Below, one piece after another: positions 938-27,507 of a stretch of 42,780 bases of DNA. The position numbers and the translations under genes are program-made. The first letter of the stretch is position 1, and the number at the start of each line of letters is the position of its first letter. Under the pieces are notes generated by a model, which worked only from the letters and a program-made list of their open reading frames with translations, was not told the DNA's origin and searched no databases. Source of the DNA: Promethearchaeota archaeon. Its GTDB lineage: Archaea > Asgardarchaeota > Lokiarchaeia > Sigyniarchaeales > SOKP01. The stretch covers positions 1-42,780 of the forward strand of contig JAGXNS010000009.1 of the NCBI GenBank assembly GCA_019894855.1, read 5' to 3'.

Positions 938-1747
938 TTAAGCAGCTATATACAATCTGCCATTCGTTTCTTTCTTAATTGTGTGGTCCCCGCTATATTC
1001 GATGAATTTTCCTTTAATCACTTCACCGTTAGGGAGTTGAACTTCTTTAACTTCGCCAACTTTCTTATAAGAAGGTAAGAGCCTTGAAACCTTTCCTTTA
1101 ATAACAATATTTCCCCATGCTTGGTCAGCGCCCACACATCGGTCGACATCTCCTTCGACTACAATAGTTCCACCATGATTGTGAATCCCTAAGAACGAAT
1201 CAGCACTTCCACAGTATAGAGTTGGCCACTTGTTTGAGGGTTTGGAACTCTTAGCCCATAACATTGACTCTACTCCTACTTTTCCTTTGACTTTTATCGT
1301 ACCATTTTTCATGCCTTGCCAGTATCCTCTGTAAGCTGATCCAACATAGTGTCCTGCGTCGCCTGTAATTTCGAGTTCGCCTCCTTGAAGCATAGCGCCA
1401 GCCCAATCGTCAGCATTCCCATTAACAGTAATTTTACCACCGGACATATGATTTCCGATATGCATTCCAATATCACTGTTAATAACTATTTCCCCACCAG
1501 TCATCTTTTCTCCAATGCGTTTTACGTTGGATACATCGCCATCAATAACTATTTTTGTATCAGCCACATCTGTAGATTTACCAGATACATCAAAGAAATC
1601 ACCAATAGTTACCTGCTTTGTTGCGTAAAATAAAGGTAATTTTTTAATATCAGCTGCAGTTTTACCAGCAAAATTATCAGGAGTAATACTATCCGCTTCT
1701 AATGGAAAATCTAGCTTCTTTTTTATTTTTAATTTAATTTCCGCCAT
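938..1747 (-). CDS. fwdC: Formylmethanofuran dehydrogenase subunit C
   Basis: 269 aa, the usual length for FwdC/FmdC. The protein is built of repeated Gly-rich strands (roughly residues 65-215), the GXGXG right-handed beta-helix shared with the C-terminal domain of glutamate synthase. In the characterised complex FwdC is a structural subunit that helps hold FwdA and FwdB together. It is the last gene of the fwd operon, and its ATG at 1747 lies 3 bases after the fwdB stop, with GGGTGAG just upstream. The complex reversibly reduces CO2 to formylmethanofuran with ferredoxin electrons in the cytoplasm, the first step of the archaeal methyl branch of the Wood-Ljungdahl pathway. Identity is clear from fold pattern, length and neighbours. 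Confidence 0.93.
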   Translation of the reverse strand: MAEIKLKIKKKLDFPLEADSITPDNFAGKTAADIKKLPLFYATKQVTIGDFFDVSGKSTDVADTKIVIDGDVSNVKRIGEKMTGGEIVINSDIGMHIGNHMSGGKITVNGNADDWAGAMLQGGELEITGDAGHYVGSAYRGYWQGMKNGTIKVKGKVGVESMLWAKSSKPSNKWPTLYCGSADSFLGIHNHGGTIVVEGDVDRCVGADQAWGNIVIKGKVSRLLPSYKKVGEVKEVQLPNGEVIKGKFIEYSGDHTIKKETNGRLYIAA

Positions 1748-1750
1748 GCT

Positions 1751-3076
1751 TTACTCACCCATCTTTTCTTTAACTTTTTCGATAAGTCTTTCTAAAATTT
1801 CTTTATCCGATAAGGTTTCTCCTGGTGCGTCTTTCACTTTCCTTAATCTTAATGGTACTCCATCCATACGATAAGCAGTTCCTTCGCATTCAATACCAGC
1901 GATCGCAGCGGGTAAAATCACGTCTGCAAATGCAGAAGTTGGAGTTTTATGAGGTTCAATTGCTATTAGTGGATGTTTAAATAGATTTTTTACCGATGCT
2001 GCTGGAAAATTACTACCTGGATCAGATGCAACTATCAAGGAAGCGTCAACTTCATCTCGTAGTAATAATTCTACGGAAGAGAACTCCCCTGGATTATAAC
2101 GAGGATAACCTCGGGAAAAATCAATTGAATATGCATATCCCGTATTCCAAGTAAAAACTTGATTAGCCCCAGCAACATTATAATGCCCACGCATAGGAAT
2201 TAGAAGAAATTTAGTATAATCATTTAATTCCGCTACTAAACGGATTGCTGTGTCTACATTTCGGTGATGAGCGAGGCTTTGTGTCAAACCCATACCAAAA
2301 AAGACTACACCAAAATTGCATGATTTTAACTCTTCGACTAATTCTTTAATATCGTCTATAGGAACACCAGATACTTCTTTTACATCTAATTCACTACCTC
2401 TTAAGACTGCCCTTATTGCTTGGATCAATTCGTAATCTTCGCTAGGATTAACTTTAATGTATTTATCTGCAATTTGAGCAGTGTGAGTATTTCTTGGGTC
2501 AACTACTATAATGTTTCTATCGTTTCTACCGTCAGTTCTAAAATATCCTCTAATAAAATCACTGTAGCGGCTTAAGTGCCTTGGATGAGCATGAACTGGG
2601 TTAGACCCCCAAAAAATAATAGTATCTGCTCGGTTTTTGATCTCACCTAATGTTGCTAGTGAAGCACCTACGTCTTGGATTGCTAATAAACTTGGACCGT
2701 GACACACAGAAGCTGTATTATCTAAAAGAGCGTTTAACATCTCGGCTAATTCAACGCCTTTACTCTGAGCTTCACATTCAGTGCTAGAAAAACCGTAAAG
2801 CAAAGGTCGCTGTGCGTTTACCAATATATCGGCCGCTTTATCTAATGCTTCGTCCCAAGTAACTTCTTTATGTTCCCCATTTACTTTAATTAATGGTTTC
2901 GTATAACGATGATCGCTCGGATTCGATGAAAAATATTTTTTGGTACCAATCTGGCAACCGTTTCTTACTTCTACAACAAGATCTGTTTTTATATCGACAT
3001 CTATTTCGAGATCATCACAAAGAGTTCCACAAAACGGACAACTTACATCTTTTACTGTTCTTATTTTTTCAACCAT
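1751..3076 (-). CDS. fwdB: Formylmethanofuran dehydrogenase subunit B (catalytic, Mo/W)
   Basis: Catalytic molybdopterin/tungstopterin subunit that reduces CO2 to formate, which FwdA then transfers to methanofuran. From the ATG at 3076 it is 441 aa. Cysteines 13, 16, 20 and 41 make the N-terminal CxxCxxxC...C [4Fe-4S] site. The motif ASVCHGPS carries Cys125, the metal ligand that is Cys or Sec in this family, so this is the cysteine form. A GTG three codons upstream (3085) is also open, but GAGTGA sits 5 bases before the ATG and favours it. It follows fwdD by 13 bases and precedes fwdC by 3. No frameshift and no missing ligand is visible. Confidence 0.95.
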   Translation of the reverse strand: MVEKIRTVKDVSCPFCGTLCDDLEIDVDIKTDLVVEVRNGCQIGTKKYFSSNPSDHRYTKPLIKVNGEHKEVTWDEALDKAADILVNAQRPLLYGFSSTECEAQSKGVELAEMLNALLDNTASVCHGPSLLAIQDVGASLATLGEIKNRADTIIFWGSNPVHAHPRHLSRYSDFIRGYFRTDGRNDRNIIVVDPRNTHTAQIADKYIKVNPSEDYELIQAIRAVLRGSELDVKEVSGVPIDDIKELVEELKSCNFGVVFFGMGLTQSLAHHRNVDTAIRLVAELNDYTKFLLIPMRGHYNVAGANQVFTWNTGYAYSIDFSRGYPRYNPGEFSSVELLLRDEVDASLIVASDPGSNFPAASVKNLFKHPLIAIEPHKTPTSAFADVILPAAIAGIECEGTAYRMDGVPLRLRKVKDAPGETLSDKEILERLIEKVKEKMGE

Positions 3077-3089
3077 TTTTATCACTCTA

Positions 3090-3485
3090 TTAAGCTTCCC
3101 TTAATCTTCCTATTAATTCTATAGCGCCTAGAACTTTTCCAGTTTTTACAACTTCAACCTTAGCATTCATTCCCTTATATTGTGGAGTCCCACATCCATG
3201 GGAACTAGGATTTACGAGTTGATTTGCCCATGGTCCCATCGGTATAAAAATTATACCTTGATGAGGTCCTTCTTCAGTAATTGTTGAATAAACTACTACC
3301 TCACCGAAATCTGTTATGACTTTAACTGGAGTTCCAACGAGACAATCAAGTCTTTTAAAATCATCAGCATCAAATGTGCAGATACCTGCAGCTCGAACAT
3401 TTTCTCTTGATGCTTTTCCCCCTTCAAGTGCCACTCCCTGACTAATGGTTCTTCCTGTTAATAGAATTAAATTATCTAAACTCAT
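3090..3485 (-). CDS. fwdD: Formylmethanofuran dehydrogenase subunit D
   Basis: 131 aa with the fold of the molybdopterin-dinucleotide-binding domain (C-terminal domain of the DMSO reductase superfamily), which in Fwd is a separate subunit completing the FwdB active site. Recognisable features are the N-terminal strand with TGRTISQG and the glycine-rich MGPWANQLVNPSSHGCGTP region (about residues 83-101), which contacts the pterin cofactor in homologues. The start codon overlaps the fwdF stop by 4 bases (ATGA), a translational-coupling arrangement, and fwdB follows 13 bases downstream. Length and motifs are normal for the family. Confidence 0.93.
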   Translation of the reverse strand: MSLDNLILLTGRTISQGVALEGGKASRENVRAAGICTFDADDFKRLDCLVGTPVKVITDFGEVVVYSTITEEGPHQGIIFIPMGPWANQLVNPSSHGCGTPQYKGMNAKVEVVKTGKVLGAIELIGRLREA

Positions 3486-4198
3486 TTTACCGCCTCTTCT
3501 TTTTTACTCCATCTTAAAGTTTTCAATCTTTCTAATAAAGGTGGCCAATATCGTTCTTCAAATTCACCTGAAGTGTGCACTTCTATTATGTCAAGTACTA
3601 AAGCTCCAGTAGGACATGCATTATCGCAAGCTCCACAAGCTACACAAGCGTCTTCGTCAACTACTTCGACATTTTTCGACATTTCCCATCCATGTTCCGG
3701 TCTTTTAGCGATCTCAATTGAACCGGAGGGGCAAACTTCGGCGCAAGAACCACAACCCTTAGCACATTCTTCGTCAATAACTTTAACAGTTGCCTTAGCC
3801 CATTGCTTTGCGATTCTATCGTTTAATAGTTTCTTCGTTTCAAACTCTAAAGTTGGCATTACTTTTTGAGCAACAAGTGGGATGTCTGTTAAATTAAAAA
3901 TTTCGCCATCTTTTTTCATAGTTAATGCTCCAAAAGGGCAGCAATAAACGCAAGTTCCACAGAAAACACAAAGTTTGGGATCATAGAGTTCTGGAATAAT
4001 ATCTTCTGTTGTGGGAAACCTTCGTGAGGCTCCAACTGGTCCACGAGAAATAGCATCCTTAGGGCAAACCCGGGCGCAAGTTCCGCATCCAACGCATTTA
4101 TCTCGATTTAAAATTAGTTCTAAATTTTCAATAAGGAACTGAACTTTGATACTTTCTATCTCCTTTGAGATTTCTCTTGATATTTTTGGAAACGACAT
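3482..4198 (-). CDS. fwdF: Polyferredoxin of the formylmethanofuran dehydrogenase complex (FwdF-like)
   Basis: 238 aa carrying four [4Fe-4S] motifs: Cys35/38/41/45, Cys77/80/83/87, Cys145/149/152/156 (CxxxC spacing in the first gap) and Cys185/188/191/195. Methanogen FwdF usually has eight clusters in about 350 residues, so this is a half-size version. It should wire electrons from ferredoxin, or from an Hdr-type complex, to FwdB. It sits between the 85-aa ferredoxin gene (8 bases upstream) and fwdD (4-base overlap). AGGTGA just before the ATG sets the start. The third motif has one extra residue, which may alter that cluster's surroundings. Assignment to the complex rests on operon position; the sequence itself shows only a four-cluster ferredoxin. 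Confidence 0.87.
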   Translation of the reverse strand: MSFPKISREISKEIESIKVQFLIENLELILNRDKCVGCGTCARVCPKDAISRGPVGASRRFPTTEDIIPELYDPKLCVFCGTCVYCCPFGALTMKKDGEIFNLTDIPLVAQKVMPTLEFETKKLLNDRIAKQWAKATVKVIDEECAKGCGSCAEVCPSGSIEIAKRPEHGWEMSKNVEVVDEDACVACGACDNACPTGALVLDIIEVHTSGEFEERYWPPLLERLKTLRWSKKEEAVK

Positions 4199-4802: not shown

Positions 4803-6464
4803 ATGGTTCACGACATATTTACGTTTCTTGTTGGAGGTAAAGCTGGAGAAGGTGTAAAGAAAGCAGGGTCAGTAGCAGCTCATATTTTTTCTAGTTTGGG
4901 AAGGCAAGTGTTCCAAATGGACGATTACATGAGCTTAATAAGGGGCGGTCATAATTTTTCCGTTGTAAGCACGTCCTCTCGTTGGATTACGAGTCAATAT
5001 ATGAAAGCGAACCTTGTGGTTAATTTTGATAAGAGAAGTTGTGATACTCACATTAACGATGTTGCTGATGGGGGTATTGTCATTTTTAACTCAGACGAAC
5101 AAAAAAATGCTGATGGTATTGGCATCCCGTTAAGTTCAGAAGCCGAAAAATATCCTATGAAGAAATTAATGTATGGCGTAGGAGCCGTGGCGATATTATC
5201 TTCGACAATAGGAATGAGCAAAGATCAAATGAACCAAAATATCAAAAATCAATATCCAAGAGGTATCGAAGATAACATCAAATTTGCCGATACAATATAC
5301 GATATGGTAAAAGTTGGATGTCAAAATAAATACCCGTTAGAAAAAGGAGAAAAGGAAAGACCCATTATTACGGGAAACGATGCTATAAGCCTCGGTGCAA
5401 TAGCGGGTGGGTTAGACACGTATTTTGGATATCCAATGACGCCTGCTTCTTCTATTCTGCACTTTTTAGCAAAGCAGGCTGAAAATTTTGGTTTAGCTGT
5501 TGTTCATGCTGAAAGCGAACTTGCTGTAATTAACATGGCGATAGGTGCAGCATTTACAGGTGCGAAATCTATGGTCGGAACCAGCGGTGGAGGATTCGCA
5601 CTTATGACCGAAGGTATATCCTTAGCAGGTATAACAGAAACACCCATTTTATGTGTATTATCTATGCGTCCTGGGCCTGCTACTGGGGTTCCTACTTATA
5701 CTGAACAGGCTGATTTAAATTTTGCTCTCTCTGCGGGCCATGGTGATTTTTTGCGAATAGTAGCCTCACCTGGAACAATAGAAGAGGCTTATTATTTAAC
5801 TGCTGAAATGTTAGATCTCGTTTGGAAGTTTCAAACACCAGGCATTCTTCTAACAGAGAAACATTTATCCGAAAGTAGTATGACGATAAACTTAGATATT
5901 GATAGCGCTAAATGGGCAGAACCAAAGATGCATAATGGGGGAAGTTATAAGAGATATAAAGACACGGACGATGGAATTTCACCAATGCTCTTTCCACCTT
6001 CTAAAGAAATAATTAAATGGAATAGTTACGAACACGATGAGATTGGAATTACAACTGAAAGCGCGGAAATAATCGCAAAAATGCATAATAAAAGGAATAA
6101 AAAACTAGGGAAACTTATTGAATATTTAAAAACACAAAAGACAGTTAATATTATTCGAGGAGAGCACCCCACTAATATTTTTGCTTATGGTTCTACTTAT
6201 ATGAGCGTGTTAGAAGCGCTTAAGTATGGTAGATTAAATCCAACGGTTGTTCAACCGATTTATTTGAGCCCATTCCCTGTTTGGGAATTAGAAGAATTTA
6301 TAAATCAAGACAATATTGTAATTGAACAAAGCGTTACGGGACAATTCGCATCTCTTCTTAAGGAGAAAGCAGATTTGAACATTAGAAGCGTGATTAAGAG
6401 ATACGACGGTCGTCCCTTTGATCCAATTGAACTTTCGACTAAAATTAAGGAGGAGTTGGAATAA
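4803..6464 (+). CDS. korA: 2-oxoacid:ferredoxin oxidoreductase, fused gamma-alpha subunit
   Basis: 553 aa. Residues 1-180 are the gamma domain (GGKAGEG at 11-17, RGGHN at 47-51). Residues from about 190 are the alpha, pyrimidine-binding domain, with the YPMTPAS form of the family's YPITPSS motif near residue 210, followed by a transketolase C-terminal-like domain. With the beta subunit downstream it forms a TPP- and Fe-S-dependent enzyme that oxidatively decarboxylates a 2-oxoacid plus CoA to an acyl-CoA, reducing ferredoxin, or runs the reverse carboxylation. The two-gene layout with a gamma-alpha fusion is typical of 2-oxoglutarate/2-oxoacid enzymes (KorAB/OFOR). Substrate cannot be told from the sequence; 2-oxoglutarate or a broad range of oxoacids are the likely options. 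Cytoplasmic. GAGGT precedes the start. Confidence 0.9.
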   Translation: MVHDIFTFLVGGKAGEGVKKAGSVAAHIFSSLGRQVFQMDDYMSLIRGGHNFSVVSTSSRWITSQYMKANLVVNFDKRSCDTHINDVADGGIVIFNSDEQKNADGIGIPLSSEAEKYPMKKLMYGVGAVAILSSTIGMSKDQMNQNIKNQYPRGIEDNIKFADTIYDMVKVGCQNKYPLEKGEKERPIITGNDAISLGAIAGGLDTYFGYPMTPASSILHFLAKQAENFGLAVVHAESELAVINMAIGAAFTGAKSMVGTSGGGFALMTEGISLAGITETPILCVLSMRPGPATGVPTYTEQADLNFALSAGHGDFLRIVASPGTIEEAYYLTAEMLDLVWKFQTPGILLTEKHLSESSMTINLDIDSAKWAEPKMHNGGSYKRYKDTDDGISPMLFPPSKEIIKWNSYEHDEIGITTESAEIIAKMHNKRNKKLGKLIEYLKTQKTVNIIRGEHPTNIFAYGSTYMSVLEALKYGRLNPTVVQPIYLSPFPVWELEEFINQDNIVIEQSVTGQFASLLKEKADLNIRSVIKRYDGRPFDPIELSTKIKEELE

Positions 6465-6465
6465 T

Positions 6466-7299
6466 ATGGAAAACCTTAAAACCAACGCTGAAATTACTTG
6501 GTGTCCTGGTTGTGGGAATTTTGGGATTTTTACTGCTTTAAGAAACGCAATCCCAAAACTAGAAGCAGAAGGAATCAATAGGAAAGATATTGTAATAACA
6601 GCTGGAATAGGATGCCACGCAAAAATTTTCGATTATTTGAATTTAAGCGGGCTTTATGGGTTGCATGGACGAAATAGCTCGAATGCCGAAGGAATAAAAA
6701 TTGCAAATCCCGATTTAAAAGTCATAACTTTTTCTGGAGACGGAAACGGATTAGGTGAAGGATTAGCTCATACAATTTTCGCAGCCAAAAGAAATCAAGA
6801 TATTACCATGGTTTTGCATAACAACAGCGTGTATGCATTAACCACTGGTCAATATTCGCCGTTGACAGAAAAGGGGTGGAAAGGACCTTCTACTCCAAGA
6901 GGAAGTTTTGAAACGCCTTTTAACGCCATATCTTTAATGCTTGAGGTTGGAGCCACATTTATTGCAAGAACATTTGCTGGTGAAATTACACATCTTACAG
7001 AAATAATAGTCCAAGCGATCGAGCACAAAGGTTTCTCTTTTATCGAAGTTTTGCAACCAGCCATGCCCTATCATTCTTGGAGTGAGTATCGAGAAAAAGT
7101 AGAATTTCTTGAAAAAGAACCTGAAACTTACGAAGAGGCGGTAAAAATTGCTAAAGTTAGACACAAATATACTTTAGGCCTTTTTTATAAAATTAAAAGA
7201 CCGGTATATCATGAAGGATTATACGGAGATCATAATCCACTAATAAAGCGTTTATCCCGAAGTGACAGAATTACAAAAATTAAGAAAAACCTCAACTAA
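6466..7299 (+). CDS. korB: 2-oxoacid:ferredoxin oxidoreductase, beta subunit
   Basis: 277 aa from the ATG at 6466, one base after the alpha stop and 10 bases after a strong AAGGAGGAG (6447-6455). An upstream in-frame ATG at 6418 would lie inside the alpha gene and is unlikely. The TPP-binding signature is clear: WCPGCGNFG (Cys13 and Cys16 bind the [4Fe-4S] cluster in homologues), GIGCH, then SGDGNGLGEG with the downstream Asn-Asn pair for TPP-Mg. The remainder matches the KorB/OforB beta family, and no separate delta-type ferredoxin subunit is nearby. It forms the active heteromer with the upstream subunit. The C-terminal tail is lysine-rich but otherwise normal. Confidence 0.92.
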   Translation: MENLKTNAEITWCPGCGNFGIFTALRNAIPKLEAEGINRKDIVITAGIGCHAKIFDYLNLSGLYGLHGRNSSNAEGIKIANPDLKVITFSGDGNGLGEGLAHTIFAAKRNQDITMVLHNNSVYALTTGQYSPLTEKGWKGPSTPRGSFETPFNAISLMLEVGATFIARTFAGEITHLTEIIVQAIEHKGFSFIEVLQPAMPYHSWSEYREKVEFLEKEPETYEEAVKIAKVRHKYTLGLFYKIKRPVYHEGLYGDHNPLIKRLSRSDRITKIKKNLN

Positions 7300-9309: not shown

Positions 9310-10590
9310 ATGAAAGATATTAGAAAAAAATTGAAAATTCCAGACGACGCATTACAAGTAATAAACGATTTTTTATTGGACGAAAAAAATCCACTGATAA
9401 ACGATCTCTTAACTATCATAGATAAATATGGTGGAATAGAAGAGATTAATAGAAAGGCAGAAGAAAACAGTAAAGTGGAAAGATTACTCGAAAAGTTAAA
9501 AAAGAAGAAACCTGAATATGTTAAGGATATAGAGTGGTTGATTTCTCAACGCGATAATAATTCTTTTATTAGCATAGCAGATTATAGAAAAAAGATTTTA
9601 GGTGATAGAGCGTCTGAAGTATCTTTTGACGAGGAATTTGCTGTCACATTAGAGTTATCTGCTTGCCAGTATTTTCCGTTTTTCATTGATATCGCGAAGG
9701 ATGCCTTAGAAAATCAGAAATTAGTCCCTGGAAGGATTATCCGCGTAAGGAATATGAAAGAACAAGAAGAAGATGGCGACTTATTAGCGATAGCTGCAGC
9801 TATGCAAATTATTGGCTCAACATGGGTAGAAACTCTTGACACAAAAGGTACCGCACCAGGTCCGGATGGAATGCCAGTGAATGTGCATCTCGGAGGGCCT
9901 GATACCATTACGGGATACTTTGGAGGCGTAGGCCAACCAAATGAGTACGCTTTAAAATGGATCGACGAATTCCTTTATTACTACACAAATTACGGTATTA
10001 AGCAGGTTTTAAATGTGAATCCTGGAACGGTTTTATTAGGATATTTTATCTATAAGCTGGGAATTAATAACGAGTTTAAAATTTCAGTCTTTATGGGAAA
10101 TGATAATCCCTACTCAAGCCTTTGGACATTATTGACTGCAAAATTATTTGCTCGGGAAGACGGTACTAGTCCATTAATCGGTTACAACTTGTCGAATGCA
10201 GTTAACAACCAAACATTAGAATTATCAGCTTACATAAGAAAACCATTTGGTTTCGAAGATGTTGTAAGGTTAGAGCACCACATTACAGAGTGCTACAAAT
10301 CGATAGTAAGGCAGCCGTACGACAGAAGAGATGAGTTAGTAGAACTTGCTAAGAAAGTTAAAAATATTAGTGCCAAACATGAAGGTGGAAATGTAGAGGT
10401 TGATAAAAATAGAGAACATCCCACAGACATTCTTGAATACTTCGCTGCTAAAAAGGATCTGATAGAAGCGGGACTTTGGGACGCTTTACGAATTAATCAT
10501 TTAGATCGAAATGATGCAGTTAATTCAACAGCTAAAGCTTTAACTGAGAACGGAATAGCGTTTATAGCCGCTAAAAATCTACACCACTAG
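9310..10590 (+). CDS. Unrecognised conserved-looking 426-aa protein, partner of the aldolase-Fae fusion
   Basis: 426 aa, no signal peptide or membrane segment, so cytoplasmic. Residues 1-90 are highly charged and helical (rich in Lys, Glu, Asp). From about residue 130 alternating hydrophobic strands and helices suggest an alpha/beta barrel, with glycine turns typical of enzymes: LDTKGTAPGPDG (about 177-188), VHLGGPDTITGYFGG (about 191-205) and NPGTVLLGY. Charged motifs EHHITECYKS and SAKHEGG, and the C-terminal NHLDRND and AKNLHH, offer possible metal or substrate ligands. I cannot assign it to a family. The gene ends 25 bases before the aldolase-Fae gene, so the two are almost certainly co-transcribed, and it may make or use the aldolase substrate. 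A weak AGGTT precedes the ATG. Confidence 0.85.
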   Translation: MKDIRKKLKIPDDALQVINDFLLDEKNPLINDLLTIIDKYGGIEEINRKAEENSKVERLLEKLKKKKPEYVKDIEWLISQRDNNSFISIADYRKKILGDRASEVSFDEEFAVTLELSACQYFPFFIDIAKDALENQKLVPGRIIRVRNMKEQEEDGDLLAIAAAMQIIGSTWVETLDTKGTAPGPDGMPVNVHLGGPDTITGYFGGVGQPNEYALKWIDEFLYYYTNYGIKQVLNVNPGTVLLGYFIYKLGINNEFKISVFMGNDNPYSSLWTLLTAKLFAREDGTSPLIGYNLSNAVNNQTLELSAYIRKPFGFEDVVRLEHHITECYKSIVRQPYDRRDELVELAKKVKNISAKHEGGNVEVDKNREHPTDILEYFAAKKDLIEAGLWDALRINHLDRNDAVNSTAKALTENGIAFIAAKNLHH

Positions 10591-10615
10591 TGATAAATAA
10601 GGAGGTTATATTAAA

Positions 10616-12106
10616 ATGGGAAAATTTGATTTTAGACCAACGGGAGTTATGCCAGCCTTAGTAACTCCTTTCAATAAAGATGACGAATCAATTAACGAAG
10701 AAAACCTTAGAAATTTAGTAAACCATCTCATAGAACAAGGAGTCACGGGACTCGTACCTGTAGGGACGACTGGAGAGTTCGTAAATATGACCTTCGAAGA
10801 ACGCTTGAGGGTTATAGAAATCGTAGTAGACGAAACAAATGGAAAAGTTCCAGTAATTGCGGGAACAGGGGAGACCGGTACAAAACTGGTTATAGATGCT
10901 ACCAAAGCTGCGACAGATATTGGGGCTGATGCTGCGATAATAGTAACACCATACTATTTAAAACCTAAAGCAAAGGGCTTATACGATCATTACTTCACGA
11001 TAGCTGAAAAAACGGATATTCCGTTAGTATTGTATAACATTCCAGCTTGCACCGGTTTAGAATTGCCTTGGACAGTTGTAGAAGATCTTGTTGATATCGA
11101 AAATTTTGTTGCGATAAAAGATTCTAGCGGCGATTACAAATATTTTTCTGCGTTACTAGAAAAAGTAAGTGATAAAATCTCGGTTTTGATTGGATGGGAC
11201 GAAAATGTGTTAGGTGCTTTAGCGGGTGGTGCTGCGGGTTGTATACTTGGGTCTGCTAATGTTATTCCCAAGATATGGCTTGAAATTTACGATCATGTGA
11301 ACAGCAATCGGTTGAAAGAAGCGCAATCTCTACAAAAAAAAGTTCAAAAGTTAGCTCGCATGTTAATCAATTCTGGCCCTTTAGGCGTTAAGGAGTGCCT
11401 AAATATGATGGGAGTTCCAGTAGGCACGACAAGACGACCTATTATTCTTGGAGATGCTCTTTCGTACGAGCTTCGAGACGAATTTAGAGTTGAACTTGAG
11501 AAGTTAGGGTTTATAGAAAAGAAAGAATTGAAATTTGAAATAGCTGAAAAAGAGCTAACAAGTAGATTTTATTCAGTGGGTATTACTCCAGAAAAAATAA
11601 CTAATTTTACTCTAAAAGTTGGAGAATCTCTTGTAGGGAATAGAGCAGAATTAGCACATATTGACTTGTTAATAGGAAGTAAAGATGGACCCGTAGGAGA
11701 CGCTTACGCTCGAGCTTTAACCCATCCTGCTAAGGGTCGCGAAGGACTACAGGTTATTCTAGAACCAAACATGCAAGTTAAACCAGCAACAATTATGATA
11801 CCTACAGTAAAGGTTACTTCTCTTCGACACGCGAGCTTAACTTACGGTCCCGCTCAAGCGGCAGTCGCGAAAGCAGTAATGAAGTGCGTAGAAGATGGAA
11901 TCCTTCCTAAAGAAGCTGCAGAGGATCTTTTAATCGTCGTAAATGTATTTGTGCACCCAAGCGCAAGCGCTCGAAAGCGAGTTTTTATAAACAACTTTAA
12001 AGCAACTAGAAATGCAATTCGAAAGGCGATGGAAGGATTACCGACGGTAGATGATGCCCTCCAAAACACTGAGAATGCTCGTCATCCCTTCAGGAACGAT
12101 CCTTAA
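10616..12106 (+). CDS. Fusion of DapA/NAL-family aldolase with formaldehyde-activating enzyme (Fae)
   Basis: 496 aa, AAGGAGGT before the ATG. Residues 1-300 form a class I TIM-barrel aldolase of the dihydrodipicolinate synthase family: GTTGE at 50-54 (pyruvate carboxylate site), Tyr113/Tyr114, YNIPACTG at 140-147, and Lys168 in AIKDSSGD as the Schiff-base lysine. The position that is Arg in true DHDPS (Y-N-x-P-x-R-T-G) is Cys145, so lysine synthesis is unlikely. Residues of about 328-495 are a complete Fae domain: VGESLVGN, AHIDL with His348 (the catalytic His22 of Methylobacterium Fae), YGPAQ at 410-414, and the C-terminal HPF. Fae condenses formaldehyde with tetrahydromethanopterin to methylene-H4MPT. 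A plausible, untested role is cleavage of a hydroxymethyl oxoacid such as 4-hydroxy-2-oxobutanoate to pyruvate plus formaldehyde, captured by Fae, or the reverse. Domain calls are firm; the reaction is inference. Confidence 0.92.
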   Translation: MGKFDFRPTGVMPALVTPFNKDDESINEENLRNLVNHLIEQGVTGLVPVGTTGEFVNMTFEERLRVIEIVVDETNGKVPVIAGTGETGTKLVIDATKAATDIGADAAIIVTPYYLKPKAKGLYDHYFTIAEKTDIPLVLYNIPACTGLELPWTVVEDLVDIENFVAIKDSSGDYKYFSALLEKVSDKISVLIGWDENVLGALAGGAAGCILGSANVIPKIWLEIYDHVNSNRLKEAQSLQKKVQKLARMLINSGPLGVKECLNMMGVPVGTTRRPIILGDALSYELRDEFRVELEKLGFIEKKELKFEIAEKELTSRFYSVGITPEKITNFTLKVGESLVGNRAELAHIDLLIGSKDGPVGDAYARALTHPAKGREGLQVILEPNMQVKPATIMIPTVKVTSLRHASLTYGPAQAAVAKAVMKCVEDGILPKEAAEDLLIVVNVFVHPSASARKRVFINNFKATRNAIRKAMEGLPTVDDALQNTENARHPFRNDP

Positions 12107-12111: not shown

Positions 12112-12732
12112 TTACTTTTTCTTTTTTGCGGATTTTTTTTTATCTTCAATTTTTTTAATGATTAAATGGACGCCAAAATACATAAAAATTACTCCAAGTA
12201 ATAACCAAAAGAACGATAAAATAATTGGCTGTTCGCCTGAGGTTGTAATCAACACAACAAAAGAGATTATATTAACAAGACCTATTGCGATTGAGATTAT
12301 TCCTAATATTTGGTTTGCTCGTTTTTTCGTTGTATCACTATCTATATAAATGTCAGCGGTTACTAAAAATATTCCGTAAATAAGTATAAATATACCTACA
12401 AGGGTCAAGGGTAGTAAAACTAATGTTCTTAAATCGTTGATTGCGTCAAGTCGCGAATCTGCCATAGCGTAAATAGAGCAAATTATAGGGATCATGCCGT
12501 CTATTATTAAAATTAATCCTTTAGCTTTAACACCTAATTTAGTTTGAGTGATTAAATAAAACCCGAAAAATATTGTAGTAAAGCTAAATGCTATTAACGG
12601 AATTGAAAGGATAATTAATACCCCTTTAGACACATCGTAATCAAAGAACATGCTCCAAATTGTAATTCCTGAAATGCCTAAAAAGATTACGCCCAAAACT
12701 GCTAAAAATATTCCTAAACTTCTTTTATCCAT
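12112..12732 (-). CDS. Six-helix membrane protein of unknown function
   Basis: 206 aa with six clear hydrophobic segments, at about residues 5-27, 37-62, 72-92, 104-130, 143-165 and 172-193, and a very lysine-rich C-terminal tail that should face the cytoplasm by the positive-inside rule. No channel, transporter or enzymatic motif is visible, and short glycine-containing helices are all that recur. It is convergent with the aldolase-Fae gene (5-base gap) and divergent from the peroxiredoxin gene. An integral membrane protein is certain in type; the function is unknown. Confidence 0.75.
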   Translation of the reverse strand: MDKRSLGIFLAVLGVIFLGISGITIWSMFFDYDVSKGVLIILSIPLIAFSFTTIFFGFYLITQTKLGVKAKGLILIIDGMIPIICSIYAMADSRLDAINDLRTLVLLPLTLVGIFILIYGIFLVTADIYIDSDTTKKRANQILGIISIAIGLVNIISFVVLITTSGEQPIILSFFWLLLGVIFMYFGVHLIIKKIEDKKKSAKKKK

Positions 12733-21152: not shown

Positions 21153-21992
21153 CTAATATTCGTTTGGCATTTTTTTGAGTTCTGCTAGTGAAAAAACAGG
21201 CCCATCGATGCAGACAAATTTCTCACCGATATTGCATCTTCCACATTTCCCGATTCCACATTTCATTCGCATTTCTAATGAATTAAGGATCTGCTCGTCT
21301 TTCCAACCGATCTTAACTAACTCATCTACGGCAGTTCTTATCATAATAGGTGGTCCGCAAATAATTGCTACTGCATTATCTGGAGAAGGAGCAACTTCCT
21401 TGACTATGGCAGCTACAAAACCTACTTTTCGTGTCCAGCCTTCTTCTTCGCGATCTATGGTCAAAACTACCTTAATATCGTCTCGTTTTTCCCATTCTTC
21501 AAGAACATCTCGATAGAGAACTTCGCCTGAATCTCGATTTCCATAAATTACCGTTATATCACCGTAATCTTTTCTGTGTTTGTCATCTAACACATATAAG
21601 ACAAGTGATCTTAGCGTGGAAAACGCAAATCCCCCTCCAATTACGACAATATTCTGCCCTTTTAGCTCTTTCATCGGCCAACCGTTTCCCAACGGACCTC
21701 TCACACCAATAGTATCTCCAATATCACTGTTGTGAAAGGAAGAAGTCACGGTTCCCATTTTTTTTATCGTGAATTTGATCGTACCCTCTTCAGTGGGCGA
21801 AGAGGCAATACCAATAGGACATTCTCCTTTACCAATAATACTAATTTCTGCAAATTGACCAGGAATATAATCGAAAGCTTTATATTCTTCATCCTTTTGA
21901 AATTCTAACTCGAGAGTTTTTATATCTCGTACTTCATTTTCCGAAATTATAGATTTTACTTTCGTCAACATTGGAATATACGGATTAGGCAC
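21153..21992 (-). CDS. flxA: FlxA-like FAD/NAD(P)-binding oxidoreductase subunit
   Basis: 279 aa in the ferredoxin-NADP reductase-like family of sulfhydrogenase gamma and anaerobic sulfite reductase B subunits. Residues 1-105 bind FAD (PGQFAEI, RGPLGNGWP), residues 110-235 bind NAD(P)H (VVIGGGFAFSTLRS, CGPPIM at 212-217), and Cys245/250/253/261 at the C-terminus bind a [2Fe-2S] cluster. It should take electrons from NAD(P)H into the Flx-Hdr complex. The first codon is GTG at 21992 with GGTGAG upstream, and it overlaps the flxB stop by 8 bases. It is the last gene of the operon. HydG of archaeal sulfhydrogenases is the nearest alternative name, but no hydrogenase gene is in this locus. Confidence 0.87.
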   Translation of the reverse strand: MPNPYIPMLTKVKSIISENEVRDIKTLELEFQKDEEYKAFDYIPGQFAEISIIGKGECPIGIASSPTEEGTIKFTIKKMGTVTSSFHNSDIGDTIGVRGPLGNGWPMKELKGQNIVVIGGGFAFSTLRSLVLYVLDDKHRKDYGDITVIYGNRDSGEVLYRDVLEEWEKRDDIKVVLTIDREEEGWTRKVGFVAAIVKEVAPSPDNAVAIICGPPIMIRTAVDELVKIGWKDEQILNSLEMRMKCGIGKCGRCNIGEKFVCIDGPVFSLAELKKMPNEY

Positions 21993-23043
21993 TTACTTTC
22001 TCACCACTTTTTTCTTGAATTTCCAGTATTTTATCAATTATTAATCTGAGCTCGTTATTAACGGGACAGGCAGTAATACATCTCCCGCACCCCACACACC
22101 CTAAACAATCGTAGTTCGAGGGATAATAGCTAAACTTGTGCATTATTCGATTTCTACACCTTTGTATTTTAGCTGGGCGAGGGTTATGACCGCTCGTTTC
22201 GAGCGTATAAAGACACGACTGACATGTGTCCCAAATCCTAATTCGTCTACCCCGGTTATTGTATTCGTCGTTTTCGTCAATAACATCAAAACATGTACAA
22301 GTAGGGCATAGAAAAGTGCACGAACTGCATCCGATACAGCTTTCGCTAATTTCTTGCCAGACGGGATGTTCGAAGTTTTCGTCTAATACTTTTGTGACTA
22401 AATCAAAATTAAATTTAGTTGTAATCGATTCTTCCGCTTGGTTTGCTAAATCTTTAGATTTTTCTATATCTGCTTTTTTAGCGTCAGTAAGCCAAGATAA
22501 CTTCTTCAAGAGGTTCTCTCCTTTTTCGCTTATGGCCTCAACTAAATAAGTATCTCCTAAATCTGAAAGAAATACATCTGTACTCTCTTTTTGGAAGGGA
22601 TGACCGCCTACAGACGTACAGAAGCACGATTGCCTTGGGCTATTACAACCAATACCGATTATGGTCGCGTTTTCTCGTTTTTTAAGAAAAATATCGTCCT
22701 GAAAGTCGCCAGATGCGAAAAAATCTTCTAAAAGCTTAAAACTGTAAGCATCGCAAGGTCTAACCCCAAAAATTAGGAGTTTATCATCGAGATCTTTTCT
22801 CTCTTCAATAATTACTTCCTTCCCTTCGTATCTATACTCAAAAATAGTTTCTTTTTGAGGAAATAGCACGTCTTTTGGAGGAACCTTTGAATTCAAGTAG
22901 TCTAATTCGATTTCTTCCGCATTTGAAATCTTTTTGAATGCAATATTACCTTTTACTTTAGTAGGAGCGTAAAATTTGTATTCTTTTTCTAGCTCGCTAT
23001 AGAGTTTACCAAAGTCATCTTTTTTCAATAATTTTTCGGCCAT
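21985..23043 (-). CDS. flxB: FlxB-like iron-sulfur subunit (sulfhydrogenase beta/AsrA family)
   Basis: 352 aa. Residues 1-230 form the AsrA/HydB-type domain, with conserved FGVRPCDAYSF (about 92-103) and GIGCNSPRQSCFC around 130-142. Two [4Fe-4S] motifs follow: Cys236/239/242/246 and Cys316/319/322/326. Extra cysteines at 274/277 and 296 may bind another cluster. In the FlxABCD scheme this subunit carries electrons between FlxA and the rest of the complex. The ATG at 23043 follows flxC by 16 bases. Homologues also serve in sulfhydrogenases and anaerobic sulfite reductase, but the HdrABC-MvhD context points to Flx. Confidence 0.87.
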   Translation of the reverse strand: MAEKLLKKDDFGKLYSELEKEYKFYAPTKVKGNIAFKKISNAEEIELDYLNSKVPPKDVLFPQKETIFEYRYEGKEVIIEERKDLDDKLLIFGVRPCDAYSFKLLEDFFASGDFQDDIFLKKRENATIIGIGCNSPRQSCFCTSVGGHPFQKESTDVFLSDLGDTYLVEAISEKGENLLKKLSWLTDAKKADIEKSKDLANQAEESITTKFNFDLVTKVLDENFEHPVWQEISESCIGCSSCTFLCPTCTCFDVIDENDEYNNRGRRIRIWDTCQSCLYTLETSGHNPRPAKIQRCRNRIMHKFSYYPSNYDCLGCVGCGRCITACPVNNELRLIIDKILEIQEKSGEKVSA

Positions 23044-23059
23044 ATCTTAACCACTTCTC

Positions 23060-24091
23060 TTAATCCTCTTCTAACATAAATTCTTGGGCATCTTCCATCT
23101 TGAAATCTACCATGGGTGGTAGTACATCTGGATCGAGGCCTGAAGTGAAATCAAATCGTTCTTTAACGATCTTTTCTAATTTTCTATTAATTTTATTTAA
23201 ATCAATGCCCATTGGGCAAACAAGTGAGCACGCACCGCATGCAACGCATCTTCCTGCCATGTGCATTGCTCGAATCAAGTGATAGACGAATACATCCGGT
23301 AAATCGGTTGTCTTCCCGAACCAAACCGGCTTATTTTGATCAACAAAACAAAGATTACAATAGCACATAGGACAGGCTTCACGACAAGCGTAGCACCTGG
23401 TACACACGCTTAACTCTTCTGTGATCTGGTTCCATTTTTCTTCGGGAGTTAACGCTTCAAACTCGGCAATGTCGCTAAAATCGTCTACGATGTTCGAGTA
23501 TTCTTCGCATTCGCCAACACATAAGTCAGGAGCTTTAGAAACGAGAGGTGGCTTTCGTATTTTACATGTCTTGCATAAATCGTTCATGTATTCGTCGTAG
23601 GGAAATTCTTTTTCAAAATCTTTTCCTTTCACGATTATATTATTACCCAACACGGAGACCTCAAGAATTTCTTTTTCTCCAATATCCATCTCAATCCGTT
23701 GCCTATTAACAACTCCATTGCATGGAATTCCTATAATTTTAATCTCGTCTAATTTAATCTTATTTTCTGACGCTAAGTGAATTAATGCTCTTCCTACACA
23801 GCCCTTAGAGACAACTCCTACTATTAAATTACCTTTTTCAGAGTCTACAAATTTAGGCACTCGAGGTACTAAATACTTAGCCAAATTTACGTAGCATAAA
23901 TTGTTCCAGATCAACTTATCGACATCTTCTTCGCTGTCGATTATGATTGGTTGGGAGAGCATGGGTAAAGTACCTTCCATATAGCCAATAATCACATCGA
24001 CCTTATTCTCTTTAAGTAGTCCTTTAGCAATTTCTCTTAGATTAGTTTCAATACCCTTATTTTCTGTCTCAAGTCCCATACTCTTCACCAT
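23060..24091 (-). CDS. flxC: FlxC-like iron-sulfur protein with FrhB/FdhB-like N-terminus
   Basis: 343 aa. The N-terminal ~225 residues look like the F420-reducing hydrogenase/formate dehydrogenase beta type of domain, with cysteines at 66, 98, 124, 173, 176, 191 and 195. Two ferredoxin motifs follow: Cys230/233/236/240 and Cys282/285/288/292. This is the arrangement of FlxC, which links HdrA/MvhD to the flavin subunits. The start overlaps the upstream mvhD stop by 7 bases. An F420 site cannot be excluded, in which case F420H2 rather than NAD(P)H might also feed the complex. Residues 241-250 carry three further cysteines. Confidence 0.8.
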   Translation of the reverse strand: MVKSMGLETENKGIETNLREIAKGLLKENKVDVIIGYMEGTLPMLSQPIIIDSEEDVDKLIWNNLCYVNLAKYLVPRVPKFVDSEKGNLIVGVVSKGCVGRALIHLASENKIKLDEIKIIGIPCNGVVNRQRIEMDIGEKEILEVSVLGNNIIVKGKDFEKEFPYDEYMNDLCKTCKIRKPPLVSKAPDLCVGECEEYSNIVDDFSDIAEFEALTPEEKWNQITEELSVCTRCYACREACPMCYCNLCFVDQNKPVWFGKTTDLPDVFVYHLIRAMHMAGRCVACGACSLVCPMGIDLNKINRKLEKIVKERFDFTSGLDPDVLPPMVDFKMEDAQEFMLEED

Positions 24092-24540
24092 TTCTTTTCA
24101 AATTTTTTGTTTGGACCCAATTTTTTTACGATTTCAGTTGCTTTTCGAACTAACACGGCAAAACGCTCGCCTTCTGCGGCAGAAGCCCACATAAAGTTAA
24201 CTCTACCGGGTTCGATGCCAAAGAATTCTAGAAGTTCTTTTAATATCGCAAATCTTCTTCGGGCAACCAAATTTCCACTAATGTAATGGCAATCGCCAGG
24301 GTGACATCCAGAAATAAGAACCCCGTCCCAACCATCAGTTAAACTTTTTATAATAAAATAAGCATTAATCCTTCCAGAGCACGGGACCCTTACAATTCTA
24401 ATGTTTGGTGGGTATTGGATTCGACTTACGCCCGCTAAATCTGCTCCGGCGTAGGAACACCAATTACACAGAAAAGCGATAATTTTTGGTTCCCATTCTT
24501 TATTTTCAGACTGTTTTGTTTCTACAATTGGTTCTGTCAT
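24085..24540 (-). CDS. mvhD: MvhD/FlxD-type iron-sulfur electron-transfer subunit
   Basis: 151 aa, the family length. Motifs CNWCSYAGADLAG near residue 25, RVPCSGR near residue 53 and GCHPGDCHY near residue 79 ligate the [2Fe-2S] cluster of MvhD, which in the Mvh-Hdr complex passes electrons to the flavin of HdrA. Cysteine, not selenocysteine, occupies all sites. The ATG at 24540 follows hdrA directly (2-base gap) with GAGGGT as ribosome binding site, and it overlaps flxC by 7 bases. In the bacterial Flx operon the same gene is flxD. Confidence 0.93.
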   Translation of the reverse strand: MTEPIVETKQSENKEWEPKIIAFLCNWCSYAGADLAGVSRIQYPPNIRIVRVPCSGRINAYFIIKSLTDGWDGVLISGCHPGDCHYISGNLVARRRFAILKELLEFFGIEPGRVNFMWASAAEGERFAVLVRKATEIVKKLGPNKKFEKKW

Positions 24541-24542
24541 TA

Positions 24543-26543
24543 TTATACCCTCTTAGTTATCATTGAATGTAATTGTTCAGAAGAAAATCCTATTATATCA
24601 ATTGCGGAGCTTCTACAATTGCCAGAGCAAGCACCACATCCTTTACAGAGTGCTACATTAACTGAAGCTATCGTTCCAAACCTTCTATCATCAACATACT
24701 CAATAGCTCCATAAGCGCAATTTTGAATACACATTCCACAACCAGAACATCGATCAGCATGAATTACTGCAAAAAATGGCTCAATTTCTACTTCTCCTTT
24801 CGCCATTAACCCAATGGCGCTAGCAGCAGCTCCTTTCGCTTGTGCTACTGAATCCGGTATGTCTTTAGGTCCCTGAGAAACGCCTGCTATGAAAATTCCT
24901 TCGGTTAAAGTATCTACAGGTCTTAATTTGGGGTGTGCTTCTAAAAAGAATCCATCGGCTGACTTTTGAATTCTTAAAAGAGTAGTTATAGAATCTGAGT
25001 CCGCTCTAGGCTCGATACCAGTCGAAAGGACAAACAATTCAACTTCTAATTCAATAGGTTGCTGGAGTAATGTATCTTCGGATCGTATAATTATATTGTG
25101 ATTAAGAGGATTTTCTCTTACTTCAGCAATTCGTCCTCTCACATAATTAATACCGTAATCTCTTGCTGCTGATTCGTAAAATTCTTCATATCCTTTCCCA
25201 AACGCCCGAATATCCATGTAAAATATGTAGATATCCGCTTCTGGATGTTTTTCTTTATATTGCCTTGCCTGTTTGGTAGCATACATACAGCACACTCGAG
25301 AACAATATTTATTCCCTCCTTCTCTAAAATTTCTGCTTCCAACGCACTGTAGGAAAGCAATGCTATGTGGGTCTTTAAGATCTGATGGTTTTACAGGTTT
25401 TCCCAGAACTGGACCAAATGAACTAAGTAGTCGTTCCATTTGAAGTCCTGTAATGACATTTGGATATTTTCCGTAGCCATATTGTTTTAGTCCTGACGGA
25501 TCGTATTCGTCGTATCCCGTTGCTACGATAATTGTGCCTATTTTAACCGTAATATATTCAGGTTTGTCATCGTAATTTATAGCAAGAGGTTCACATACAC
25601 TTTCTCTGGCGCAAATTCCGCATACAACGCAGGTGTCCATGTCGATAGTATATTCGCTTGGAACTGCTTGAGGGAATGGAACATAAATAGCTTTTCTTGT
25701 AGCTAATCCTAACTCAAACTCGTTAGCAACTGTAATAGGACATGAATCGACGCAGATTCCACATCCGGTGCATTTTACTTGATCTACATAATGAGGTTTC
25801 TTTTTAATCGTAACTTCAAAATTGCCAACATATCCTGTTACTTCGGTTACTTCCGAATATGTCAACAATTCTATATTTTTATCTCGTGATATTTCAGACA
25901 TTTTTGGTGTAAGAATACATGAAGAACAATCCATAGTCGGAAAGGTCTTGTCAAGTTGGGCCATGTGCCCTCCAATTGTAGCTGATCTTTCTACTAAGTA
26001 TACTTTGTATCCTGCAGCGCTGAGATTTAAAGCGGCATTCATTCCAGTAATCCCCGCACCGATAATTAAACTTGTTGGTTCGACTTTTACTTTTTGTACT
26101 GCTAATGGCGCTAGTTCTCTTGCTTTCGCAATTGCTAACCTAATGTGATCTTTTGCTACTTCATAAGCACCTTCAGTATCTTTCATGTGAACCCACGTAG
26201 AATGTTCTCTTATGTTTGCCATTTCAAACAAAAATTGATTTAAGCCCGCTTCTTTACAAGCTATTCGAAACGTAGGTTCGTGCATTCTAGGAGAACAAGC
26301 TGCAACCACAACCCGGTTAATTAACCCCGCTTCGATATCTTCTTTAATCATTTTTTGTCCGACATCTGAACAAAAGAATTTGTATTCGCGACCCACCGTA
26401 ACATCCGGTAGCGTTTTAGCGTATTCCACTAAATCTGGAACTGAAACTACTCCACCAATATTCACGCCGCAGTGACACACGTAAACTCCTATTCTTGGTT
26501 TTTCGTTTCCCATGATACTGATTTTTTTATCTGATTCTGTCAA
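24543..26543 (-). CDS. hdrA: CoB-CoM heterodisulfide reductase subunit A-like, flavin-bifurcating
   Basis: 666 aa. Residues 18-150 are the N-terminal HdrA domain (YVCHCG, FFCSD with Cys58). GAGITGMNAA at 162-171 starts the FAD-binding thioredoxin-reductase-like fold, with GGHMAQLDKTFPTMDCSSC (191-209). An inserted ferredoxin lies at about 258-318 (two motifs, the second irregular), the CVGSRN...CSRVCC cluster at 400-419, and a C-terminal two-cluster ferredoxin at 599-647. HdrA holds the FAD that splits electron pairs between ferredoxin and the HdrB disulfide. The first codon is TTG at 26543, set by AGGAGGAT (26551-26558) seven bases away. Sec-containing homologues exist; here Cys58 is plain cysteine. 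Confidence 0.95.
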   Translation of the reverse strand: MTESDKKISIMGNEKPRIGVYVCHCGVNIGGVVSVPDLVEYAKTLPDVTVGREYKFFCSDVGQKMIKEDIEAGLINRVVVAACSPRMHEPTFRIACKEAGLNQFLFEMANIREHSTWVHMKDTEGAYEVAKDHIRLAIAKARELAPLAVQKVKVEPTSLIIGAGITGMNAALNLSAAGYKVYLVERSATIGGHMAQLDKTFPTMDCSSCILTPKMSEISRDKNIELLTYSEVTEVTGYVGNFEVTIKKKPHYVDQVKCTGCGICVDSCPITVANEFELGLATRKAIYVPFPQAVPSEYTIDMDTCVVCGICARESVCEPLAINYDDKPEYITVKIGTIIVATGYDEYDPSGLKQYGYGKYPNVITGLQMERLLSSFGPVLGKPVKPSDLKDPHSIAFLQCVGSRNFREGGNKYCSRVCCMYATKQARQYKEKHPEADIYIFYMDIRAFGKGYEEFYESAARDYGINYVRGRIAEVRENPLNHNIIIRSEDTLLQQPIELEVELFVLSTGIEPRADSDSITTLLRIQKSADGFFLEAHPKLRPVDTLTEGIFIAGVSQGPKDIPDSVAQAKGAAASAIGLMAKGEVEIEPFFAVIHADRCSGCGMCIQNCAYGAIEYVDDRRFGTIASVNVALCKGCGACSGNCRSSAIDIIGFSSEQLHSMITKRV

Positions 26544-26556
26544 TTTTTCGATCCTC

Positions 26557-27507
26557 CTAAGTTAACTGGTTTTTTACTTTTTCTAAAAACGGTTTTATAG
26601 GAATAAATGGAGTAACTCCTTTTAGGTCGTGATTTTTTACTAATCCTAAAAGATTTGGATCAATTCCAAAAGATAATCCTAATAGCTGAGTAATGTATAC
26701 TACAGGGATTTTATATGGTTCTCCAATCATATCTTTATAAAGATTATTAGCCTCCATTTGACCTAAATCTAATTGTAAATGGCAAAATGGGCAACAATCG
26801 ATAATGATATCGGCGCCAGCATCCCTCATGTTCTCTAATTTTTCCCGAGAAAAGTCAGCTGAAACTTCTTTTACAGCCGTTCTTACTGCGCCGCCAGCTC
26901 CGCAACACATTAATTTATCTTTATAATCAATGCTTTTAGCACCCGTAATTTCAACAATTTCATCGAGAAATGTCGGGTCTTCGCATTCTCCTCCCCAAGG
27001 TCTTTTATCACTTGGTTTAATAATGTGACATCCGTAATGCACTGCCACCTTTAAATCCTTAAATTTATGTTTTACAAAACCTCGTAAGTACTCTAAACCC
27101 ATATCTTGATACAAAACCTGAACAATGTGCTTAGGTTCAATTGATCCTTTAAATTCTCTGCCAACTTTTGCGAGATGTTCGTTTACCATTTTCTTTAATT
27201 CGTGTTCGTGTTCTAATTCAACCCACGCGTCTCGAAGCGTACCATAGCAACCATTACACCCCGTTATAATATCAACTCCCAGCTCTTCTGCTATTGTTAT
27301 ATTTCGAGCAGCGATTACTAACCAAGTAGGAATGTGAAACGCTCGAAAAACACCCGGAGCAGGACAACAAGACGCTCCTTCTAATTCAAGAATTTCAGCA
27401 CCTAAATGATCAAATACTGCCCTGATAGACGATTCAATCATGGGATAGCGATTAGGAGCCACGCAACCAAGAAAAAAACCATATTTCCATTTATTTTCTT
27501 CACTCAT
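26557..27507 (-). CDS. hdrB: CoB-CoM heterodisulfide reductase subunit B-like
   Basis: 316 aa with two complete CCG domains that bind the noncubane [4Fe-4S] clusters of HdrB. The first is Cys15, Cys47-Cys48, Cys84, Cys87. The second is Cys160, Cys201-Cys202, Cys239, Cys242 (Cys238 is extra). In methanogens this pair cleaves the CoM-S-S-CoB heterodisulfide. Outside methanogens the acceptor of HdrABC is usually unknown, so the physiological disulfide here is open. AGGTGG sits before the ATG at 27507. The gene is followed after 13 bases by hdrA and preceded by hdrC, the canonical order C-B-A. Confidence 0.95.
   Translation of the reverse strand: MSEENKWKYGFFLGCVAPNRYPMIESSIRAVFDHLGAEILELEGASCCPAPGVFRAFHIPTWLVIAARNITIAEELGVDIITGCNGCYGTLRDAWVELEHEHELKKMVNEHLAKVGREFKGSIEPKHIVQVLYQDMGLEYLRGFVKHKFKDLKVAVHYGCHIIKPSDKRPWGGECEDPTFLDEIVEITGAKSIDYKDKLMCCGAGGAVRTAVKEVSADFSREKLENMRDAGADIIIDCCPFCHLQLDLGQMEANNLYKDMIGEPYKIPVVYITQLLGLSFGIDPNLLGLVKNHDLKGVTPFIPIKPFLEKVKNQLT

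Follow-up and report, generated by a model that had tools for sequence, protein, structure and literature searches.

Fae speeds the reaction of formaldehyde with tetrahydromethanopterin (H4MPT) to methylene-H4MPT, and aldolases of the DHDPS family take pyruvate-type oxoacids as substrates. The window analysed here, a single stretch of archaeal DNA of 42,780 nucleotides, contains a gene in which domains of both kinds are joined. If the reaction proposed below is right, this gene would open to direct test the question of how Asgard archaea connect carbon from amino acids or sugar acids with the Wood-Ljungdahl C1 pool.

The fusion gene and its distribution

The preliminary description of this locus reported an aldolase and a complete Fae domain in one gene, and this is borne out by a single open reading frame and by two sets of family models (Table 1). 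The reading frame begins with ATG and contains no internal stops. Pfam assigns the product to the DHDPS family (E = 2.9e-76) and to Fae (E = 2.9e-57), the latter match covering positions 1-158 of the 159-position profile. Likewise, the NCBIfam model one_C_fae scores the protein at 190.8 bits against a cutoff of 118.05, and the dapA equivalog model (TIGR00674) scores it at 239.3 bits against a cutoff of 206.15. Lys168, His348, YGPAQ and HPF, all named in that description, were found as stated, the tail reading RHPF. The Fae domain is complete, with its active-site His and GPAQ. The predicted structure of the fusion (pLDDT 55.4) is too poor for judging geometry.

Table 1. Features of the window that bear on the fusion gene, with positions, strand and basis of assignment.
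Feature	Positions	Strand	Basis
FwdC, FwdB, FwdD and FwdF-like polyferredoxin (formylmethanofuran dehydrogenase; C1 context)	938..4198	-	NCBIfam; D and F below cutoffs
2-oxoacid:ferredoxin oxidoreductase, two subunits, between Fwd genes and fusion operon	4803..7299	+	Pfam; context only
P0002, conserved partner gene, 426 aa, ending 25 bp before fusion	9310..10590	+	Neighbourhood and family scans
AGGAGGT, ribosome-binding-like, 9 nt 5' of fusion ATG	10600..10606	+	Read by eye
Fusion gene, DHDPS-family class I aldolase (N-terminal) and Fae (C-terminal), 496 aa	10616..12106	+	ORF, Pfam, NCBIfam
Aldolase domain, residues 8-277; GTTG, Tyr140, Lys168; Cys145 at DHDPS Arg position	10637..11446	+	Pfam and alignment
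Region separating the two Pfam domains, residues 278-334 (aldolase domain end and linker)	11447..11617	+	Pfam domain limits
Fae domain, residues 335-492; His348, EPN, YGPAQ, FVHP, RHPF	11618..12091	+	Pfam and alignment

A scan of genome contigs with exact peptide patterns yielded 40 loci, every one of them on a record whose title reads Lokiarchaeota or Lokiarchaeia. The fusion is full length in 36 of them (L032-L067, from named MAGs; 73-95% identical), and the other four are cut, three by a contig end (L068, L069 and L070) and one by an N gap (L071). Decay of the copy in L071 was considered and rejected because of this assembly gap. Searches of whole genomes were carried out within the phylum, across 227 Asgard genomes whose families are labelled f1, f3 and so on. 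With the whole protein as query, full-length fusions were found in nine families (f1, f3, f8, f9, f17, f18, f23, f26 and f28); by hand count, 105 of the 227 genomes carry a full or partial fusion, and 152 contain a Fae match. In G000, the genome to which the window belongs (84% complete), the fusion is the sole Fae match. Although the named loci come from metagenome assemblies, the probability that the fusion is an artefact of assembly or binning is negligible, since it is refuted by 36 independent full-length copies and by full-length fusions in nine families.

We placed a chosen subset of these proteins, in which L064 and L135 are one gene, in quick FastTree phylogenies of each domain. All 28 sampled fusion rows fall into one clade in both trees. 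In the aldolase tree this clade has a support of 0.805 and excludes the 17 stand-alone DHDPS-family proteins sampled from the phylum; in the Fae tree it excludes the 30 further Fae proteins, which are about 400 residues long. Given this monophyly in both domain trees, the simplest reading is that the fusion likely arose in a single old event.

Active sites of the two domains

We surveyed catalytic residues in 23 single-copy fusion rows, which represent 22 distinct genes. Lys168, Tyr140 and Thr52 are kept in all 23. Position 51 varies, with Thr in 19 rows (GTTG motif) and Ser in the other 4 (GSTG motif). The Schiff-base Lys, the Tyr, the G(T/S)TG motif and the PF00701 match that define the NAL/DHDPS class I aldolase superfamily are thus all found. 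The fusion shares this fold family, the Schiff-base Lys, the Tyr and GTTG with DHDPS itself (DapA; PF00701, TIGR00674), the enzyme that condenses pyruvate with aspartate semialdehyde, but it differs from DHDPS in its fused Fae domain and in having Cys in place of the Arg of YNVPxRTG. This Arg, which we take to be Arg138 of the E. coli enzyme, aligns with Cys145 when the fusion is compared with DHDPS of known structure, and the position is occupied by Cys in 17, Leu in 4, Val in 2 and Arg in none of the 23 single-copy rows. Since G000 holds a separate DHDPS-family, DapA-like gene bearing YNVPGRTG, lysine synthesis would be independent of the fusion. We rejected the identity of the fusion as the lysine-pathway DapA on both grounds, the loss of the Arg and the presence of an Arg-bearing DapA in the same genome.

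The Fae domain is conserved to a similar degree, with His348, Asn385, Gly411-Pro412, His447 and His490-Pro491 found in all 23 single-copy rows. Its alignment with the stand-alone Fae of entries 1y5y and 1y60 (E = 4.2e-31) takes in almost the entire domain, and the active-site His and GPAQ are kept; we take these entries to be the Methylobacterium extorquens enzyme and the aligned His to be its active-site residue. Unlike that protein, the domain described here is fused, and in one group of loci it is split over two complementary paralogues. These loci, six from family f28 that were read and one from G002 (f9), carry the fusion as a tandem gene pair. Copy 1 retains Asn385 and Gly411-Pro412 in 7 of 7 cases, His348 in none, His447 in one and the RHP tail in none. 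Conversely, copy 2 retains His348, His447 and the tail in 7 of 7 cases, and Asn385 and Gly411-Pro412 in none; in two of the seven copy-2 genes the aldolase domain is also missing its Schiff-base Lys. In the Fae tree, the f28 and G002 genes group according to copy. The aldolase tree shows this for copy 1, and there copy 2 of G002 does not group with that of f28. A duplication common to f28 and G002 is likely.

Fae is a pentamer with its active site between subunits, so the two members of such a pair could form a common Fae site. The pattern suggests a heteromeric and still functional Fae built from two paralogues, and the complementary losses in the two copies argue that Fae function is still under selection. 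The missing Schiff-base Lys in two of the seven copy-2 aldolase domains counts against this. Two large genes lie upstream of the tandem fusions in all six f28 loci read; in one of these (L126:2103-7162) they encode 869 and 817 residues, and the pair is without a Pfam match.

The closest known counterpart of this gene is Fae-Hps (NF009833; H4MPT hydro-lyase / 3-hexulose-6-phosphate synthase), which likewise combines Fae with an aldolase that would release formaldehyde for capture by H4MPT. In place of Hps, the fusion has a DHDPS-family class I aldolase of the pyruvate type, and the order also differs, Fae being C-terminal here and N-terminal in Fae-Hps. NF009833 matches only the Fae part of the fusion (model positions 2-161 of 392) at 158.7 bits, below its cutoff of 274, and neither Pfam nor NCBIfam matched an Hps domain in the protein. 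Therefore, as it has no matched Hps domain and carries Fae at the other end, the fusion is not a member of the Fae-Hps family. True Fae-Hps is the other Fae gene in 7 of 7 fusion-bearing genomes tested, scoring 539-594 bits against the same cutoff. Judged from its sequence, the fusion is predicted to work as Fae-Hps does with a different partner.

Fae-Hps is mentioned for a Lokiarchaeota MAG in PMC7495880. A survey of archaeal fusions (PMC11237513) lists Fae/Hps only, and the words formaldehyde, dihydrodipicolinate and aldolase are absent from its main text. The preliminary description knew of no account of the present combination. Our literature search agrees with it, as titles and the beginnings of abstracts, with few subscription papers covered, contained no description of a DHDPS-aldolase-Fae fusion; this is weak evidence of novelty.

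Partner genes P0002 and c18

The best clue to the pathway is a gene that the preliminary description had passed over. In every one of the 36 complete loci, as well as in L070, P0002 is the gene directly upstream of the fusion and shares its strand. At default cutoffs, neither Pfam nor NCBIfam has a model that matches it. Compared with PDB sequences, P0002 alone gave chance-level matches (best E = 0.06) and its profile gave none, and 23 of its relatives run against Pfam at E up to 10 matched scattered families (best E = 0.026). An AlphaFold model of the protein (pLDDT 72.8) returned 561 fold matches at E up to 10, of which none reached 0.001; the best of these weak matches has E = 0.019, and barrel enzymes are among the best. 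P0002 is present in 126 of the 227 genomes. Among the 65 genomes of f1, the fusion and P0002 occur together in 39, the fusion alone in 3, P0002 alone in 1 and neither in 22, and each of the four exceptions involves a partial match. Both genes are also present in f26 and f28, where they lie apart.

The fusions of f8, f9, f18 and f23 are without P0002 and are found beside a different gene, c18 (about 312 residues), instead. No match to c18 was found in Pfam (one protein tested), NCBIfam (two tested) or, by profile, in the PDB. It adjoins the fusion in 5 of 5 loci read, on the same strand in three and divergently in two, and by coordinates also in G068 and G070; in G177 it is apart from the fusion. 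Of the 227 genomes, 12 have c18; a full or partial fusion is present in 8 of these 12, and none of them has P0002 (Fisher P = 4e-5, with kinship among the genomes ignored). Even a single genus, g46, is mixed, with P0002 in G174 and G176 and c18 in G175 and G177. From this distribution, P0002 and c18 look interchangeable; a comparison of their profiles gave E = 0.0075 with a probability of only 5%.

Since P0002 also occurs in genomes without a Fae match, we read nine such loci. An aminotransferase follows P0002 in six of the nine. In all three f15 loci (L118-L120), P0002, a class I aminotransferase, a homoserine dehydrogenase and an aldehyde:ferredoxin oxidoreductase (AOR) are contiguous, and the same four genes lie within 8 kb in L116 (f12), with other genes between them. 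An aminotransferase and a homoserine dehydrogenase are near P0002 in L114 (f11); in L117 (f12) the aminotransferase is near and the homoserine dehydrogenase about 9 kb away. L113 has only an AOR, about 3.6 kb from P0002, and neither of the other two genes, L112 has none of the three nearby, and the neighbourhood in L115 is ended by the contig. A divergent DHDPS-family gene that retains the Lys directly precedes P0002 in L112; the Fae-less genome G087 shows this arrangement.

The association with homoserine dehydrogenase extends beyond the loci read. In the Fae-less families f11, f12 and f15, 29 genomes contain both P0002 and this gene, and in 23 of these the two lie within 10 kb of one another; in the remaining six they are separated, by a contig boundary in five and by a long distance in one. 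When the Fae-less genomes G088, G090 and G143 (f3 and f1) are added, the hand count is 24 of 32. Two homoserine dehydrogenases tested score above the cutoff of their equivalog model, and two aminotransferases tested reached no NCBIfam cutoff among the 25 models listed. An Asd match (PF02774) was found in no f12 genome and, within f15, only in G048. Because Asd is nearly absent by this search, the homoserine dehydrogenase of f12 and f15 probably stands off its usual feed route. The run in L119 (2181-8798) comprises P0002, the aminotransferase, the homoserine dehydrogenase, the AOR and a PatB-type C-S lyase, hinting at a link to sulfur amino acids; G051 shows the PatB-type C-S lyase next in the run.

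According to a review (PMC8879981), 4-hydroxy-2-oxobutanoate (HOB) and homoserine are one transamination apart, and HOB aldolase and HOB aminotransferase steps are described there. Thus, the neighbours of P0002 in the main Fae-less lineages point to HOB/homoserine as a common node.

Candidate reactions and their genomic setting

HOB is the simplest joint substrate for the two fused domains, because the DHDPS family takes pyruvate-type oxoacids and Fae takes formaldehyde. In the mechanism that we propose, the aldolase domain would form a Schiff base through Lys168 with the oxoacid and split HOB into pyruvate and formaldehyde, and the fused Fae domain would combine the formaldehyde with H4MPT to give methylene-H4MPT, which would enter the archaeal C1 pathway. 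The upstream P0002, or c18 in other Asgard lineages, would provide the oxoacid or its precursor. In several lineages with P0002 and without Fae, the aminotransferase, homoserine dehydrogenase and AOR would represent another exit from the same C4 intermediate. We infer the substrate, the direction, the use of H4MPT and the roles of P0002 and c18 from sequence and gene context, and we regard this bifunctional reading as the best of those considered but as somewhat less likely than not. It also supplies a hypothesis for the function of P0002, a very conserved family that matched none of the family models searched.

HOB had already been put forward as a possible oxoacid in the preliminary description; gene context now points to HOB/homoserine independently, and the reaction itself is plausible. 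Several observations count against it. P0002 has no recognised family, HOB is deduced from neighbouring genes rather than from a specificity motif, two P0002 loci (L112 and L113) have no aminotransferase or homoserine dehydrogenase nearby, and two of the seven copy-2 aldolase domains are without the Schiff-base Lys.

RhmA, which serves as HOB aldolase in a synthetic homoserine cycle, belongs to a different family and is a class II enzyme that depends on a metal. Its step, as set out in PMC8879981, is the same reaction as the one proposed here (pyruvate + formaldehyde = HOB). That cycle is engineered, whereas in Asgard archaea the C1 unit would pass through H4MPT. To our knowledge, the reaction is otherwise known only from engineered formaldehyde pathways. 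If the proposal is true, the fusion would naturally connect a C4 oxoacid with C1 units carried on H4MPT in the archaea held nearest to eukaryotes, and may represent an unknown one-carbon branch in these closest relatives. The most extended form of this proposal is an undescribed Asgard C1 branch in which P0002 or c18 makes or uses HOB, a natural HOB aldolase-Fae passes its C1 unit to methylene-H4MPT, and one large family employs a heteromer with a Fae site shared between paralogues; taken as a whole, we regard it as doubtful.

Cleavage is favored because of the parallel to Fae-Hps and because homoserine dehydrogenases and threonine synthases are fewer in f1 genomes that carry the fusion. Among f1 genomes at least 90% complete, homoserine dehydrogenase was found in 9 of 29 with the fusion and in 12 of 13 without it (kinship ignored), and threonine synthase at E < 1e-60 in 9 of 29 and 11 of 13, respectively. 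That threshold is our own and stricter than the model cutoff, and weaker matches above the model cutoff may remain, for example in G094 and G097. The rarity of both enzymes is as expected of amino-acid users; these presence counts rest on partly incomplete genomes and ignore shared ancestry. Nineteen of the 29 fusion-bearing genomes have neither a homoserine dehydrogenase nor a threonine synthase match at this threshold, suggesting that they are threonine auxotrophs. A search for thrB (homoserine kinase) exceeded its cutoff in only 14 of the 227 genomes and is given no weight here.

The same scarcity of homoserine dehydrogenase in f1 would also be expected if the enzyme ran in the synthetic direction, with Fae giving formaldehyde from methylene-H4MPT to pyruvate, the aldolase forming HOB and an aminotransferase converting HOB to homoserine, in replacement of the aspartate route. 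Across the phylum, homoserine dehydrogenase is present in 20 of 105 genomes with the fusion and 80 of 122 without it (hand count, kinship ignored). A threonine-synthase-type gene is near P0002 in two of three f28 loci read (L123 being the exception), and gene coordinates place the two near each other in at least 16 of the 39 f28 genomes with P0002. Together with the near absence of homoserine dehydrogenase matches from f28, this pattern would fit synthesis at least as well as cleavage. Against synthesis, 19 of the 20 f1 fusion genomes (at least 90% complete) without homoserine dehydrogenase are also without threonine synthase at E < 1e-60, and f12 and most of f15 have homoserine dehydrogenase and AOR but no Asd match, which suits the consumption of homoserine better than its production. 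Furthermore, methylene-H4MPT is a low-energy form. The oxoacid-building option of the preliminary description is thus weakened in f1, where most fusion genomes without homoserine dehydrogenase have no strong threonine synthase match either; it stands in f28, because that family keeps a threonine-synthase-type gene while 45 of its 47 genomes are without a homoserine dehydrogenase match. Overall, we consider the synthetic direction unlikely.

Two further readings give the aldolase a substrate other than HOB. If the aldolase were a 2-keto-3-deoxy sugar acid aldolase or DHDPS, Fae would be a mere general scavenger of formaldehyde. The score above the dapA equivalog cutoff agrees with this, as does the membership of KDG aldolases in the same superfamily, but the lost DHDPS Arg and the separate Arg-bearing DapA speak against it, and it leaves unexplained why Fae is fused to one aldolase, why P0002 is linked to the fusion and why the Fae domains degenerate in pairs; we find it improbable. 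Alternatively, the aldolase may act on another oxoacid that yields formaldehyde, such as 2-dehydropantoate, on the coenzyme A route, or a branched 4-hydroxy-2-oxoacid, to which the same chemistry would apply. Among 34 genomes split by hand, 10 of the 22 that carry the fusion show no PanB match, compared with 2 of the 12 without the fusion. Yet G000 itself has PanB, and so do 12 of the 22 (G132, G140, G112, G116 and G118 among them), and the homoserine-type neighbours of P0002 would be left unexplained, which makes this reading very improbable. The fusion was also considered as a substitute for PanB, and this is unlikely, since PanB occurs in 22 of the 34 genomes, 12 of them fusion-bearing.

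Within the preferred reading, cleavage of HOB, the 2-oxoacid:ferredoxin oxidoreductase of the window may have as its oxoacid a compound related to the aldolase product. Immediately downstream of the fusion, on the opposite strand (12112-12732), is a gene for a small protein predicted to lie in the membrane, whose weak tetraspanin-like match falls below the Pfam cutoff and six members of which occur in the clustered neighbourhoods. Farther along the window, a run of 4Fe-4S, flavin-type and CCG-domain genes on the minus strand (21985-27507) looks like a putative electron transfer complex of the heterodisulfide reductase type.
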